DNA of 64,000 nucleotides from Paludibacteraceae bacterium (lineage in GTDB: Bacteria > Bacteroidota > Bacteroidia > Bacteroidales > Paludibacteraceae). Shown here one piece after another: positions 41,836 to 51,142 of the stretch. The notes beneath the pieces are model-generated. The model did no database searches. It saw nothing but the letters and a program-made list of their open reading frames with translations, and was not told the origin of the DNA. Each line of letters opens with the position of its first letter. Position 1 is the first letter of the stretch. The translations under genes and the position numbers were made by a program. Location: positions 1 through 64,000 of the forward strand of contig JAFTCC010000032.1 of NCBI GenBank assembly GCA_017454915.1, read 5' to 3'.

Positions 41836-41891
41836 ACAAGTTTATCAATTTAGGCATAATGACCGATTGTGCTCTTTTGCCTAATGGTTCT

Positions 41892-41938
41892 CAGATACGA
41901 CGACAGCCGACTGTAGCAGCCGGCTGTCGTCGTATCTG
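41892..41938. terminator. Long hairpin terminator between convergent genes
   Basis: A perfect 18-pair stem, CAGATACGACGACAGCCG at 41892-41909 with its complement at 41921-41938, and an 11-base loop. There is no long T run, but the position between ruvA and the minus-strand YbjN-like gene fits a two-way stop. Confidence 0.75.
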
Positions 41939-41947
41939 TGAACAGTA

Positions 41948-42328
41948 TTATTCTATGTTTTGGTAGAACTCTTGGCGGGTTCCCTGAAGAATGCCAAGTG
42001 CGCGCGGGATGATATTGCTCACATCTGGGGTGCTGTCGAGCAAAATCTCAAAGAATAGCCAGACTTCGTCATCCAGTATACATGTTTTGCATACCTTCAT
42101 CTTCATGTTAGTCTTGTTGGCGGCATCAAGCACGATGTCGCGGTTCTCGTCGGTTACGTCATAGATGGCGGGCATGATAAGCTGGAAAAACTCGTCATCC
42201 TCGTCGTTGTTCACAAACAGGAACGTGCCCATTTGGTATTTGAACACTATGTTCCCGTTTTCAGGATTCACTTCCGGCGTAAAGCCTTGCTTGCGCAGAA
42301 AGTCTAATACCAATTCTGATGTTTTCAT
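41948..42328 (-). CDS. YbjN-like small protein
   Basis: A 126-residue soluble protein. It has the outline of a YbjN/T3SS-chaperone-like fold: a helix (LVLDFLRKQGFTPEV), then strands (NIVFKYQMGTFLFVN, DDEFFQLIMPAIY) and a central helix with NKTNMKMKVCK. Such folds act as binding partners or chaperones. It follows the kinase-AAA gene on the same strand with 78 bases between, so the two may work together, but this is inferred from position only. Confidence 0.65.
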   Translation of the reverse strand: MKTSELVLDFLRKQGFTPEVNPENGNIVFKYQMGTFLFVNNDEDDEFFQLIMPAIYDVTDENRDIVLDAANKTNMKMKVCKTCILDDEVWLFFEILLDSTPDVSNIIPRALGILQGTRQEFYQNIE

Positions 42329-42406
42329 AATGTAAACTTTAATTGTTTGATAATTGTGATTATCCTATTAAATTTCCCTGTAAATTAGCGTTTTTTATAC
42401 TCTATC

Positions 42407-44221
42407 TCATACGTATCCCACTTTTCGGCGGGTTAGGTTGCTACGCTCTGTGCTTTCCATTTTCTGCCTTATCTCATCGTACATTTTTATCGTGTCGGGG
42501 CGCAAAGATGGATGGGTGTTTTTGAGTGATGTTTCGAGCAGTTCTTGAGTGATGTCCTGGTCGGTGTACGCGGCTATCATTGCCGCGTCGTTGACCACAA
42601 ACGCTATGTCGCTGGCTATGTATCCTTCCGACATTTCGGCAAGCCTGTCAGCATTTATTTTGTTTTCGTCAAAGGGTCTGTCTTTGAGGTGAATCAGAAA
42701 CATCTCTCGCCGCGCTTCCTTGTCAGGTATCGGCACATAGACTTGCTTGTCAATGCGTCCTGTGCGCAGTACCGCGGGGTCTATTTTGTCAGGGCGGTTG
42801 CTGGTGCCGATGACGAAAATTCCGCGCTCCGAGCAGTTGTTGAGTTGCGAGAGGAACTCGTTGACTTCGCCTGCGGAGTATTGTGCGGCATAGTTGCTTC
42901 TGTCAGGCACCAGTGCGTCAAACTCGTCAAAACATACCACTATAGGTGCTTTTTCTGTTGCCTGCTTGAAGAGTTGTGCGATTTTTTCCTGTGAGCCGTG
43001 AACGAATGAACTTGCGAGGTCCGATGCCTTGACGATAACGAAGTTGAAGCCTGTCTCCTCGGCAAATTTTTCTGCCACGAAAGTCTTTCCGCACCCCGGA
43101 GGACCATAGAGCAGCATGCCGTTGGGTGCGCTCAAGCGGTATTTTGCCACCTTTTCCTTGTTCTTTATCACGAAGAGAACGTGTTTTGTCAGGTAGTCTT
43201 TAAGTTCCTGCATGCCTGCTATGTCCTTAAATCCGTTGCCATTGCCTTTCCTGATGTCAAACTCAACGTAGTTGGGCCCTTGTTCTCGCTGCCTGCCTTG
43301 GCTGCTCTCTGGTGTGTCAGACGAGGCTGCTTTGCTGTGAGGCGTCGAGGGGTCTTCTTGGGCTTTATCAGCAGAGTTGCCGTCAAGGTCACATAGCAAT
43401 GCATCGATGTTTTTATAACGTTCATGATATGACAGTGCCAAACCCTTGGCAAGTACGATTTTTATGCGTATGTCAACGTCTAACGAATCAAAATCAATGG
43501 GGTGTGCTTTGCGGAAGTCTTTCAGTTTAATAGCAGCCGTCGAGCGCTTTATGTTTTCAGGAATTTCCGTCTGCCACGGTTTTTTCCCGGTCAGCATCAC
43601 GTAGAGCACCATTGAGGCTGCAAAAATGTCAGACTGCTCGTCATATATTCCGATAAACGTTTCGTTGGCACAGTAGGGTAGTTCGAGGTCTGACGTGTCG
43701 AAAGGCACTTTGCCGTTGCAGCGACCCGAAACGTGCCCTAAATCGATGACTTCAGCTGGACCATTGGCCGGTAGCATAATGTTTCGCGGCGTTATGTCGT
43801 TATGGTTCAGTTCGAGGTTGTGCATGAACTTCAGGCCTTCAAGCATTTCACGGAAAATGCGCAGGGCAGTGCCGGTGTCGATTTTGCCTTCGCGCTGTAT
43901 TTTTTCTGTCAGCAGCTCTCCGTGAAAATATGCCGTGATGTAGTATTGGCACGTGCCTTCCTCAACGCTATCATAGATGCCGCTGCTGATGTAGCTTATG
44001 ATGTTTTTGTGCTTCATCAGTCTGCAATGCTCTATTTCGAGGACTTCACCGCTCGATGTGTTAAGCATCTTTTCGGGTAACCGCTTGATGATGAATAGCT
44101 TCAGAAAATACGGATTACCGTCAGCGTCCTCAATGCGGTAACTTTCGGTGTAGATGTTTTCTTTGATGAGGCTTTGTACAGTGTAGCCGCCAATTTCTAT
44201 GCCTGTTGATAGTGTTGCCAT
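42407..44221 (-). CDS. Protein kinase fused to an AAA+ ATPase
   Basis: A 604-residue two-domain protein from ATG 44221 (MATLSTGIEIGGY); a longer start is rejected because a promoter box lies at 44263-44270. Residues 10-280 form a Ser/Thr-type kinase: Lys41 in FLKLF, catalytic loop HND at 140-142 with Asn147, and DLG at 160-162 in place of DFG. The glycine loop is weak. A polar linker (about 285-318) leads to an AAA+ domain of the FtsH/spastin type: Walker A GPPGCGKT at 373-380, Walker B FDEFD at 431-435, arginine fingers at 486 and 489. No protease domain follows. A role as a regulated unfoldase or remodeler is inference. Confidence 0.9.
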   Translation of the reverse strand: MATLSTGIEIGGYTVQSLIKENIYTESYRIEDADGNPYFLKLFIIKRLPEKMLNTSSGEVLEIEHCRLMKHKNIISYISSGIYDSVEEGTCQYYITAYFHGELLTEKIQREGKIDTGTALRIFREMLEGLKFMHNLELNHNDITPRNIMLPANGPAEVIDLGHVSGRCNGKVPFDTSDLELPYCANETFIGIYDEQSDIFAASMVLYVMLTGKKPWQTEIPENIKRSTAAIKLKDFRKAHPIDFDSLDVDIRIKIVLAKGLALSYHERYKNIDALLCDLDGNSADKAQEDPSTPHSKAASSDTPESSQGRQREQGPNYVEFDIRKGNGNGFKDIAGMQELKDYLTKHVLFVIKNKEKVAKYRLSAPNGMLLYGPPGCGKTFVAEKFAEETGFNFVIVKASDLASSFVHGSQEKIAQLFKQATEKAPIVVCFDEFDALVPDRSNYAAQYSAGEVNEFLSQLNNCSERGIFVIGTSNRPDKIDPAVLRTGRIDKQVYVPIPDKEARREMFLIHLKDRPFDENKINADRLAEMSEGYIASDIAFVVNDAAMIAAYTDQDITQELLETSLKNTHPSLRPDTIKMYDEIRQKMESTERSNLTRRKVGYV

Positions 44222-44262
44222 CTTAATTCTTGTGTTTTTGTTCGGAATTGTTTTTAGATGGG

Positions 44263-44270
44263 CAAATGTA
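44263..44270 (-). promoter_or_regulatory. -7 promoter element (TACATTTG) for the kinase-AAA gene
   Basis: TAnnTTTG on the minus strand, 41 bases upstream of ATG 44221. Confidence 0.6.
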
Positions 44271-49328: not shown

Positions 49329-49640
49329 ATGGATGATTATTCTGAATTTTCAGCACCTGAATTAGTGAAGATGCTGGGCGGAAGGTTTAAGGATTATCGG
49401 TTAAGGGCCAATATGACACAAAAGGAGGTTGCAGAGATGGCTGGTCTATCCGTACTGACGGTTCATAGGTTTGAGAATGGCGCGGTGGCAAATATATCTC
49501 TTAGTACATTCCTACTCCTGTTGAAAGCGGTGGGGAGCATAAACGATTTGCGGGAACTAATGCCAGAGCAGCCAGAATCATTGTACTTGTATAAGGAAAA
49601 CAACCAAAAGGTAAAGCGTGTAAGACATAAAAAGTTATGA
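49329..49640 (+). CDS. HipB-like antitoxin, XRE-type HTH
   Basis: A 103-residue protein with a Cro/C1-type helix-turn-helix at about 20-70 (LRANMTQKEVAEMAGLSVLT, then VHRFENGAVANISLSTFL). It overlaps the hipA-like gene by four bases (ATGA), the standard antitoxin-first layout. It probably binds the toxin and represses its own operon through the inverted repeat over the promoter. The C-terminal tail is Lys-rich. Confidence 0.88.
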   Translation: MDDYSEFSAPELVKMLGGRFKDYRLRANMTQKEVAEMAGLSVLTVHRFENGAVANISLSTFLLLLKAVGSINDLRELMPEQPESLYLYKENNQKVKRVRHKKL

Positions 49641-51142
49641 GTCAAGTTATAAAAGTTATCCTATGGGGTAAGGAAATTGGGCGTTTGGCATGGCACGATG
49701 CTCGTAAGACATCCTTTTTTATGTTTAATCCAGAGTATCTGAAAGGCTCTTTGGATGTGGCGCCTTTAGTGGCATCTGTCAATAGCCCTCTAAGTTTGCG
49801 TGCCATTTTCGGCGAGGCGGAGCGTATTTATCAAAAATTGCCGTCTTTTATAGCCGACTCGCTACCTGACGCATGGGGTAATGAACTGTTTGAGCAATGG
49901 AGAAAGGAGAATAAACTAACCGCAAGGAGTGTAACCCCTTTAGAAAAACTGGCATTCATAGGCAAGCGTGGTATGGGTGCGTTTGAGTTTGTACCCGAGA
50001 TAGAACGCGGTCATTTTGCTGATATAATTGACATTAAGGCGTTGGCTGCATTGGCTGAAAAAATTGCCGTAGAGCGTGAGAATGTGCGTATTTTGCCCGA
50101 TGAATCTCTTACTTTGCAATCGCTTATTGCTGTTGGCACATCAGCTGGCGGTCGTCAGCCTAAGGCGATAATCGCAATGAATCGCAAAACAGGAGAAATC
50201 CGTTCGGGACAAATTGATGTTAACCCCGATTATGATTATTACATTCTTAAGTTTGGCGACAAGCGGCGCTCCTCTGCCGAGCTGGAACAAACTTATTACG
50301 AAATGGCCATTGCCGCAGGTATTAACATGATGCCTTCCAATTTGATAGAAGTTGAGGGCATAAGGCATTTTCTTACCATGCGGTTCGACCGTGACGAAAC
50401 GGGCAAACTTCACACGCAGACATTGGCGGCCATGATGCCGGAGGCTGACAGTTATGAGAAATTGCTGCTGGTTTGCCGCAAATTGTATCTGCCCGAGGTT
50501 GATTGCCAAGAGGTGTTCCGCAGGCTTGTATTCAATATTTTGGCGAACAACACTGACGACCATAACAAGAACTTCACATTCATAATGAATCAGCAGGGCA
50601 AATGGCGGCTCTCCCCCGCCTATGACATGACTTATGTTTTTGATAGTGGTGGATTTTTGCCGAACAAAGAGCATTGCCTAATGATTGGAGGCAAACTTAC
50701 CGACATTACGCTTGAAGACATGATTTCATTTGCTAATGAAAATGGTATTCGCGCTCCCAAAACTATTATTCGTAAGGTGGCGGCAGCAGTGTCATCGTTC
50801 CGAATAATTGCTGAGAAGAATGGGGTCTTAGATGAGTGGACTGGTAGGGTGGAAGCAACAATCATTAAACACCTGAAAGCATGGGGTGAATGGAATGATG
50901 CAAGTTCTGTTGAAGTGAATATGGAAGGCCATATAGTTTCCAATATCCGTGTTGAACAGGCTTATAAGGGCAACTTTCATCTTTATGCCACAATTGACGG
51001 ACACGAGCGGAAATTTGTCATCGGCAAGAACAAAGCAGAGTACGCCACGATAGAAAGGACAGGTGTCGCTAATTTGTCTGCTGAGCAACTAAAAAAATTG
51101 GTCACAACCTATCTTATCCCCAACGGCAAGGAAGAAAACTAA
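49637..51142 (+). CDS. HipA-family toxin kinase with C-terminal extension
   Basis: A 501-residue protein. The N-terminal HipA part includes a G-loop region with GTSAGGRQPKAI near 170. The kinase core has the catalytic loop NTDDHNKNFTF near 313 and the Asp of SPAYDMTYVF near 337. HipA proteins phosphorylate targets such as glutamyl-tRNA synthetase and cause dormancy. The last about 75 residues (from SSVEVNMEGHIVSNIRVEQA) extend past the usual 420-440-residue HipA end and form a strand-rich domain that I do not recognise. The upstream HipB-like gene overlaps it. Confidence 0.88.
   Translation: MSQVIKVILWGKEIGRLAWHDARKTSFFMFNPEYLKGSLDVAPLVASVNSPLSLRAIFGEAERIYQKLPSFIADSLPDAWGNELFEQWRKENKLTARSVTPLEKLAFIGKRGMGAFEFVPEIERGHFADIIDIKALAALAEKIAVERENVRILPDESLTLQSLIAVGTSAGGRQPKAIIAMNRKTGEIRSGQIDVNPDYDYYILKFGDKRRSSAELEQTYYEMAIAAGINMMPSNLIEVEGIRHFLTMRFDRDETGKLHTQTLAAMMPEADSYEKLLLVCRKLYLPEVDCQEVFRRLVFNILANNTDDHNKNFTFIMNQQGKWRLSPAYDMTYVFDSGGFLPNKEHCLMIGGKLTDITLEDMISFANENGIRAPKTIIRKVAAAVSSFRIIAEKNGVLDEWTGRVEATIIKHLKAWGEWNDASSVEVNMEGHIVSNIRVEQAYKGNFHLYATIDGHERKFVIGKNKAEYATIERTGVANLSAEQLKKLVTTYLIPNGKEEN

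Follow-up and report, generated by a model that had tools for sequence, protein, structure and literature searches.

Background

ClpP is a central bacterial protease and a drug target. To our knowledge, the unfoldases known to serve it (ClpX, ClpA, ClpC and ClpE) are all Clp/Hsp100 proteins. Degradation by ClpP can be linked to a kinase, as in the McsB-ClpC-ClpP system with its YwlE phosphatase. The ClpP-docking tripeptide of the Clp ATPases is (L/I/V)-G-(F/L) (PMC8745299).

The protein described here is encoded in a 64,000 nucleotide stretch of Paludibacteraceae DNA, referred to as the window, and joins a kinase-like domain to an AAA+ module. Like ClpX, ClpA and ClpC, it has an AAA+ motor with a pore loop, a hydrophobic-glycine-aromatic tripeptide and, in some lineages, a neighbouring clpP. 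Those proteins have a Clp/Hsp100 module, whereas that of the fusion is Cdc48-like, its N-terminal domain is kinase-like and the zinc domain of ClpX is absent. The Clp tripeptide is in an internal loop, while that of the fusion is at the very C-terminus and may also have tyrosine. Cdc48, p97 and VAT are nearest to the AAA+ module in both sequence and fold, yet these have two such modules rather than one, an N-domain in place of the kinase-like domain, and a different C-terminal tail. FtsH has a related AAA+ module, but the fusion carries no M41 protease domain, having instead the tail and a separate clpP. The proteasomal ATPases PAN and Rpt provide a functional parallel, since their C-terminal tails dock a peptidase. 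Their tails are of the HbYX type, however, whereas the fusion has [IV]G[FY], a different N-domain and no proposed 20S proteasome partner. HbYX itself is absent from the C-terminus of the window protein, which ends KVGYV with glycine at the Hb position. Compared with McsB-ClpC-ClpP, the kinase fold is eukaryote-like and fused to the motor, and a low molecular weight (LMW) phosphatase gene is present in one lineage only. No description of the fusion family was found in the open-access texts that were searched.

Organisation of the locus

The fusion gene occupies 42407..44221 on the reverse strand and encodes 604 amino acids, with the reading frame at 44221-42410 and the stop codon at 42407. A 626 amino acid version was rejected, because its start is upstream of the promoter box and the relatives begin at the equivalent of residue 1. 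This box, tacatttg at 44263..44270 on the reverse strand, was read from the sequence and is of the TAnnTTTG type, the consensus of Bacteroidota promoters. The closest relative is 63% identical from end to end, so the fusion is no spurious open reading frame. Together with Pfam matches far above the cut-offs, this bears out the first-pass annotation, which had described a single 604-residue protein with kinase-like and AAA+ parts.

A YbjN-fold protein of 126 amino acids is encoded 78 nt downstream in the same direction, at 41948..42328 on the reverse strand (coding part 41951-42328, stop codon at 41948). A 27 nt inverted repeat with 93% complementarity is located at 41887..41943, between this operon and the convergent ruvA, and is the probable operon terminator. 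The genes upstream of the fusion, MntP, DUF3109 and a nucleosidase-like gene, are shared between the window and a related genome (G001). Elsewhere in the window, at 49329-51142 on the forward strand, a HipB-like HTH gene precedes a complete HipA kinase gene (HipA_C, 7e-42), and the two resemble a toxin-antitoxin pair.

The AAA+ motor

The AAA+ module spans residues 328-572 (43240 to 42506, reverse strand; 42506..43240) and was assigned from profiles, sequence and fold searches, and motifs. The Pfam AAA model matches with an E-value of 6e-35, far above its cut-off. The Walker motifs are complete, as had been noted initially, with Walker A GPPGCGKT at residues 373-380 (43082-43105, reverse strand) and Walker B CFDEF. 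The arginine finger reads RTGR, and an N occupies the sensor-1 position. Walker A and B are kept in all 61 aligned relatives, and sensor-1, the arginine finger and the aromatic pore loop in most.

The module had originally been called FtsH-type, which did not hold. The CDC48 model scores 187 bits against 160 bits for FtsH, and p97/Cdc48 structures are the top matches in searches by sequence and by fold. The 187 bits are to be read against a CDC48 family cut-off of 802 bits, the fusion having one AAA module. Membership of FtsH was rejected; there is no Peptidase_M41 match and the protein ends about 30 residues past the AAA lid. No Clp-type module is among the AAA models listed, the best of these being CDC48, FtsH and PAN.

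The kinase-like domain

Residues 1-283 (43373..44221, reverse strand) form the kinase-like domain, as defined by Pfam Pkinase, a motif table of the relatives and a structural model with pLDDT >90. The Pkinase match has an E-value of 1e-23 and scores 84.5 bits, the cut-off being 31.7, therefore by the family cut-off this part of the protein has a eukaryotic-like protein kinase fold. A linker of low confidence follows at residues 284-327 (43241..43372, reverse strand), with pLDDT of about 36-53 for residues 281-320. The HND and DLG variants of the kinase motifs that had been read from the sequence are indeed present, at H140-N141-D142 and D160-L-G162.

Across the motif table of 61 relatives, the clade of the window protein retains K41 (the ATP lysine), E62 (the helix-C glutamate), D142, N147 and D160. 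This suggests that kinase activity may survive in this clade. An active kinase could phosphorylate substrates, or YbjN, for the attached motor, which would make the fusion a fused counterpart of McsB/ClpCP and a refinement of the ClpP model set out below. One lineage has in its operon an LMW protein phosphatase (Pfam LMWPc, 4e-27), consistent with a phosphorylation switch. However, in the same table the window protein and its clade lack both the glycine-rich loop and the Lys of HRDxKxxN in the catalytic loop. In addition, the relatives with Hsp70-type operons mostly have HNE in place of HND, so that the catalytic Asp has become Glu, and some have HNN or HNG. Two relatives (L065 and L195) have lost nearly all of the motifs, a few domains are plainly dead, and there are members with YbjN that have no kinase domain at all. 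Tagging of this kind is thus rather doubtful.

The loss of the catalytic Asp in many relatives leaves kinase activity uncertain, and in many of these the domain is probably a pseudokinase. The motor motifs, in contrast, are kept almost throughout, so on the pattern of motif conservation it is not kinase activity that is conserved across the family.

The C-terminal tail

Residues 573-604 (42410..42505, reverse strand), assigned from the sequence and the model, form a C-terminal helix and tail ending RRKVGYV. The VGY tripeptide (42413..42421, reverse strand) is spelled identically in the ClpP-docking loop of the ClpX from its own genome. In the relatives the tripeptide comes after a linker of variable length. 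It was spotted in the first alignment, of seven sequences, before the neighbouring 203 amino acid gene discussed below was recognised as ClpP.

Of the 82 full-length proteins, 65 have a [IVL]G[FY] tripeptide within their last 16 residues (IGF in 49, VGF in 7, IGY in 5 and VGY in 4), compared with 1.4% of shuffled tails. In the other proteins of the fusion loci, leaving out the triple-AAA family described below, it occurs in about 2 of 830, and in a second sample of neighbouring proteins in 4 of about 330 (last 10 residues). Four Hsp70-type or stray members lack a tail of the [IV]G[FY] type (L186, L331, L332 and L063). The ClpX docking loops of the fusion-bearing genomes are VGY, VGF, IGF or IGY. 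A strict match of F or Y between ClpX loop and fusion tail was considered and rejected. Fusions with Y tails are found in 3 of 6 genomes with ClpX-VGY and in 1 of 10 with ClpX-[IV]GF, and as this correspondence is weak across genomes it is not used as proof.

Short basic-hydrophobic C-termini can also be Clp degrons, as in MuA. Such a tail could make the fusion a regulated substrate of ClpXP instead of a partner of ClpP. A signal recognised at its end would not tolerate trailing residues, however, and there are often 1-8 of these after the tripeptide, and about 16 in one case (L046), as in ...VGFKRTDNN, ...RIGFNFSGD and ...VGFNVNNDDKPTACN. The glycine of the tripeptide is also strictly kept, and a degron would leave the linkage to clpP unexplained. 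A role as a degron is therefore very improbable.

Linkage to clpP

At 12 loci the gene order is YbjN, fusion, ClpP, in most cases preceded by aminopeptidase P. The ClpP at these loci, here called ClpP2, is encoded by a 203 amino acid gene, matches Pfam CLP_protease with an E-value of 1e-55 and has the S-H-D triad. It is divergent and falls in a clade of its own (100/100), separate from the housekeeping ClpP of the clpP-clpX operon, and one genome (G197) carries both. In L055, a lineage unrelated to these, a fusion ending KIGFDN is followed after 13 nt by a ClpP belonging to the other clade. The evidence on ClpP2 reflects a small number of evolutionary events, seen for the most part in metagenome-derived genomes that are incomplete.

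The 12 fusions linked to ClpP2 are exactly those with a V[QE][GSP]L tail, which no others have, so the strongest clpP linkage coincides with a non-canonical tail. L167, a sister of one of these fusions, has no ClpP2 and has the tail IIGYH. In the other ClpP2 genomes that were checked, clpX is present with IGF or VGF and no clpP adjoins it. ClpX there keeps IGF with only ClpP2 to dock on, and ClpP2 did not therefore demand a new tail. Nor is ClpP2 dedicated to the fusion, since 15 genomes have ClpP2 and no fusion.

No genome with a convincing fusion is demonstrably without ClpP among the 358 of the host's family, a comparison of low power, since nearly all of these genomes carry ClpP and its mere presence therefore says little. 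The ClpP of the host itself is encoded at G000:C47:13492-14019. One 92% complete relative (G059) has neither ClpP nor ClpX detected. In a number of genomes (G166, G186, G225, G169, G174, G089, G124, G071, G103, G067 and G203; loci L214-L224 and L229-L246) the housekeeping clpP beside clpX has been lost. The sole full ClpP found in them is divergent and encoded elsewhere, its nearest solved structure being 1y7o, and their clpX retains the IGF/VGF loop.

These results bear on the model first put forward, in which the fusion would instead act as a stand-alone remodeler, disassembling or refolding proteins without a peptidase, controlled through the kinase-like domain and with YbjN as adaptor. The tail would then dock some other cofactor. 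The Cdc48/p97 proteins nearest to its AAA module are largely remodelers, the Hsp70/J-like/TerB operon described below would suit disaggregation, and most fusion loci, that of the window among them, have no clpP nearby. Against this, the tail shares its ClpP-docking letters with the ClpX of the same genomes, clpP adjoins the fusion in two separate lineages, and the type of tail changes with the linked ClpP. The tail letters and the clpP neighbours point to ClpP-coupled degradation over stand-alone remodelling, which appears unlikely.

The YbjN-fold partner

The window YbjN-like protein matches Pfam YbjN weakly, at 18.6 bits with a cut-off of 22, and those of its relatives exceed the cut-off at 36.9 and 42.1 bits. 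The structure predicted for the window protein (pLDDT 94.8) resembles those of DR1245, type III secretion chaperones, E. coli YbjN and AmyR (4h5b, 2bsh, 6vu7 and 5fr7). As modelled, the protein has a class I T3SS chaperone-like fold, and the predicted fold is common to the YbjN/AmyR/DR1245 and TY-Chap1 families. We know of no studied member of these that is encoded beside an AAA+/ClpP unit. YbjN and TY-Chap1 have been placed among the peptide-binding chaperones (PMC9503650, PMC5398634, PMC3575483).

A six-frame HMM scan of the fusion loci found YbjN adjoining the fusion in 28 full-length loci; the loci with YbjN include L049, L054, L058 and L174. In the tree, the window protein belongs to a clade of 22 members (99/96), and YbjN is present in all except four that are flanked by ribosomal proteins. 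Six AAA relatives have no kinase domain (L048, L196, L333, L334, L335 and L340), and each has two YbjN genes beside it. YbjN therefore goes with the motor rather than with the kinase. Adjoining these genes in two of the loci (L048:7239-7793 and L196:725-1309) is a conserved protein of 184-194 amino acids from no known Pfam family.

All 15 loci that have ClpP2 and no fusion also have no YbjN; in every one, aminopeptidase P and ClpP2 are immediate neighbours, and YbjN was found nowhere in these 15 genomes. This indicates that YbjN and the fusion have been gained or lost as one block at the aminopeptidase P-ClpP2 site. The YbjN-like gene that had been reported to follow the fusion is thus a real, linked partner, on the evidence of its adjacency, its joint gain and loss at one site, and a peptide-binding chaperone fold. 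Whether it is always linked was also raised, and here the answer is divided: about 30 other loci have an Hsp70-type operon instead.

Family distribution and gene neighbourhoods

The fusion is sporadic across Bacteroidota. Matches at E<=1e-60 were found in 58 of the 358 genomes of the host's family, counting truncated and kinase-less forms. Beyond that family, about a dozen full-length matches came from 393 genomes at the level of the order and 5 from 395 at that of the phylum; the other order and phylum matches, at about 220 bits, are to the AAA part alone, in frames of FtsH length. Relatives occur in Empedobacter, Salegentibacter, Plebeiobacterium and Daejeonella, and the cultured members Salegentibacter salarius and Empedobacter are of the Hsp70 type described below. 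The domain pair is thus a conserved family, for which about 80 full-length sequences were gathered.

The Hsp70-type loci, about 30 from several families and orders, have Hsp70, J-like, coiled-coil and TerB genes in constant order, and YbjN and Hsp70 were never found together at one locus in the six-frame scan. The operon (L045, L047, L159-L165, L316-L332) consists of a J-like NPYRILG protein, a coiled-coil protein, an Hsp70 of about 840 amino acids, the fusion and TerB, often with DUF6804; no description of it was found in the open-access literature. One Hsp70-type locus (L066:16080-16832, L066_12) encodes a membrane protein with a PVGF tail and a possible YbjN-like domain, a weak assignment for which HMMER did not find YbjN and hhalign gives 65%.

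An LMW phosphatase, a triple-AAA protein or both are present at 8 loci. The triple-AAA protein (L187, L188, L190, L192 and L348), of about 1035-1100 amino acids and ending IGF, usually has in its operon the LMW protein phosphatase together with a fusion of shorter length, and is a second AAA+ type with an IGF tail.

Kinase and AAA domains are also found in the anti-phage systems PD-T4-6, MADS6 and IetA, and PADLOC matches the fusion to IetA (5e-33), PD-T4-6 (5e-26) and mad6 (9e-26). A role in defence would suit the sporadic distribution. However, the matches reflect the general AAA and kinase folds, and the YbjN-group loci are set among housekeeping genes in conserved order (MntP, DUF3109 and nucleosidase-like; ribosomal proteins; aminopeptidase P). 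These stable neighbours make a defence island unlikely for the window lineage, and defence as the function of the fusion is quite improbable.

A proposed ClpP-dependent machine

The reading that we consider fairly probable, drawn from sequence comparisons, is that the fusion docks on ClpP and unfolds proteins for it, with the kinase-like domain serving in regulation or recruitment and the YbjN chaperone delivering substrate. Against this reading stand the position of the tripeptide at the C-terminus and not in an internal loop, the non-canonical tail of the ClpP2-linked group, the genomes that have ClpP2 and no fusion, the four members without the tail, and the many loci with no clpP nearby. 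The motor would use ATP to unfold substrates within a degradation machine that depends on ClpP, and would hexamerise by way of its Cdc48-like AAA+ module. A flexible tail at the C-terminus (...RRKVGYV) would plug into the hydrophobic pockets of ClpP, as does the internal IGF loop of ClpX. If so, the peptidase would be recruited non-covalently, at the end where FtsH has its fused protease. The YbjN-fold protein would bind substrate peptides and bring them to the motor, much as secretion chaperones deliver to their ATPase. The kinase-like domain would be a regulatory or recruiting front end, and in the window clade it may actively tag substrates. In other lineages the Hsp70/J-like set, or the LMW phosphatase and triple-AAA protein, would replace YbjN with the same motor. 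It can be suggested, tentatively, that this is a further class of ClpP protease, having a Cdc48-like unfoldase, a C-terminal IGF-type tail, its own kinase tagger or switch, and interchangeable front ends (YbjN, Hsp70/J-like, or phosphatase and triple AAA).

Bacteroidota are a dominant phylum of the gut. If the motor hands proteins to ClpP, this would be an undescribed kind of bacterial protein-destruction machine. A Cdc48-like partner of ClpP with a kinase-like domain and an adaptor of secretion chaperone fold would widen the set of ClpP machines and suggest a role for orphan YbjN proteins. It would also connect the turnover of proteins in Bacteroidota with phospho-signalling or with pseudokinase folds.
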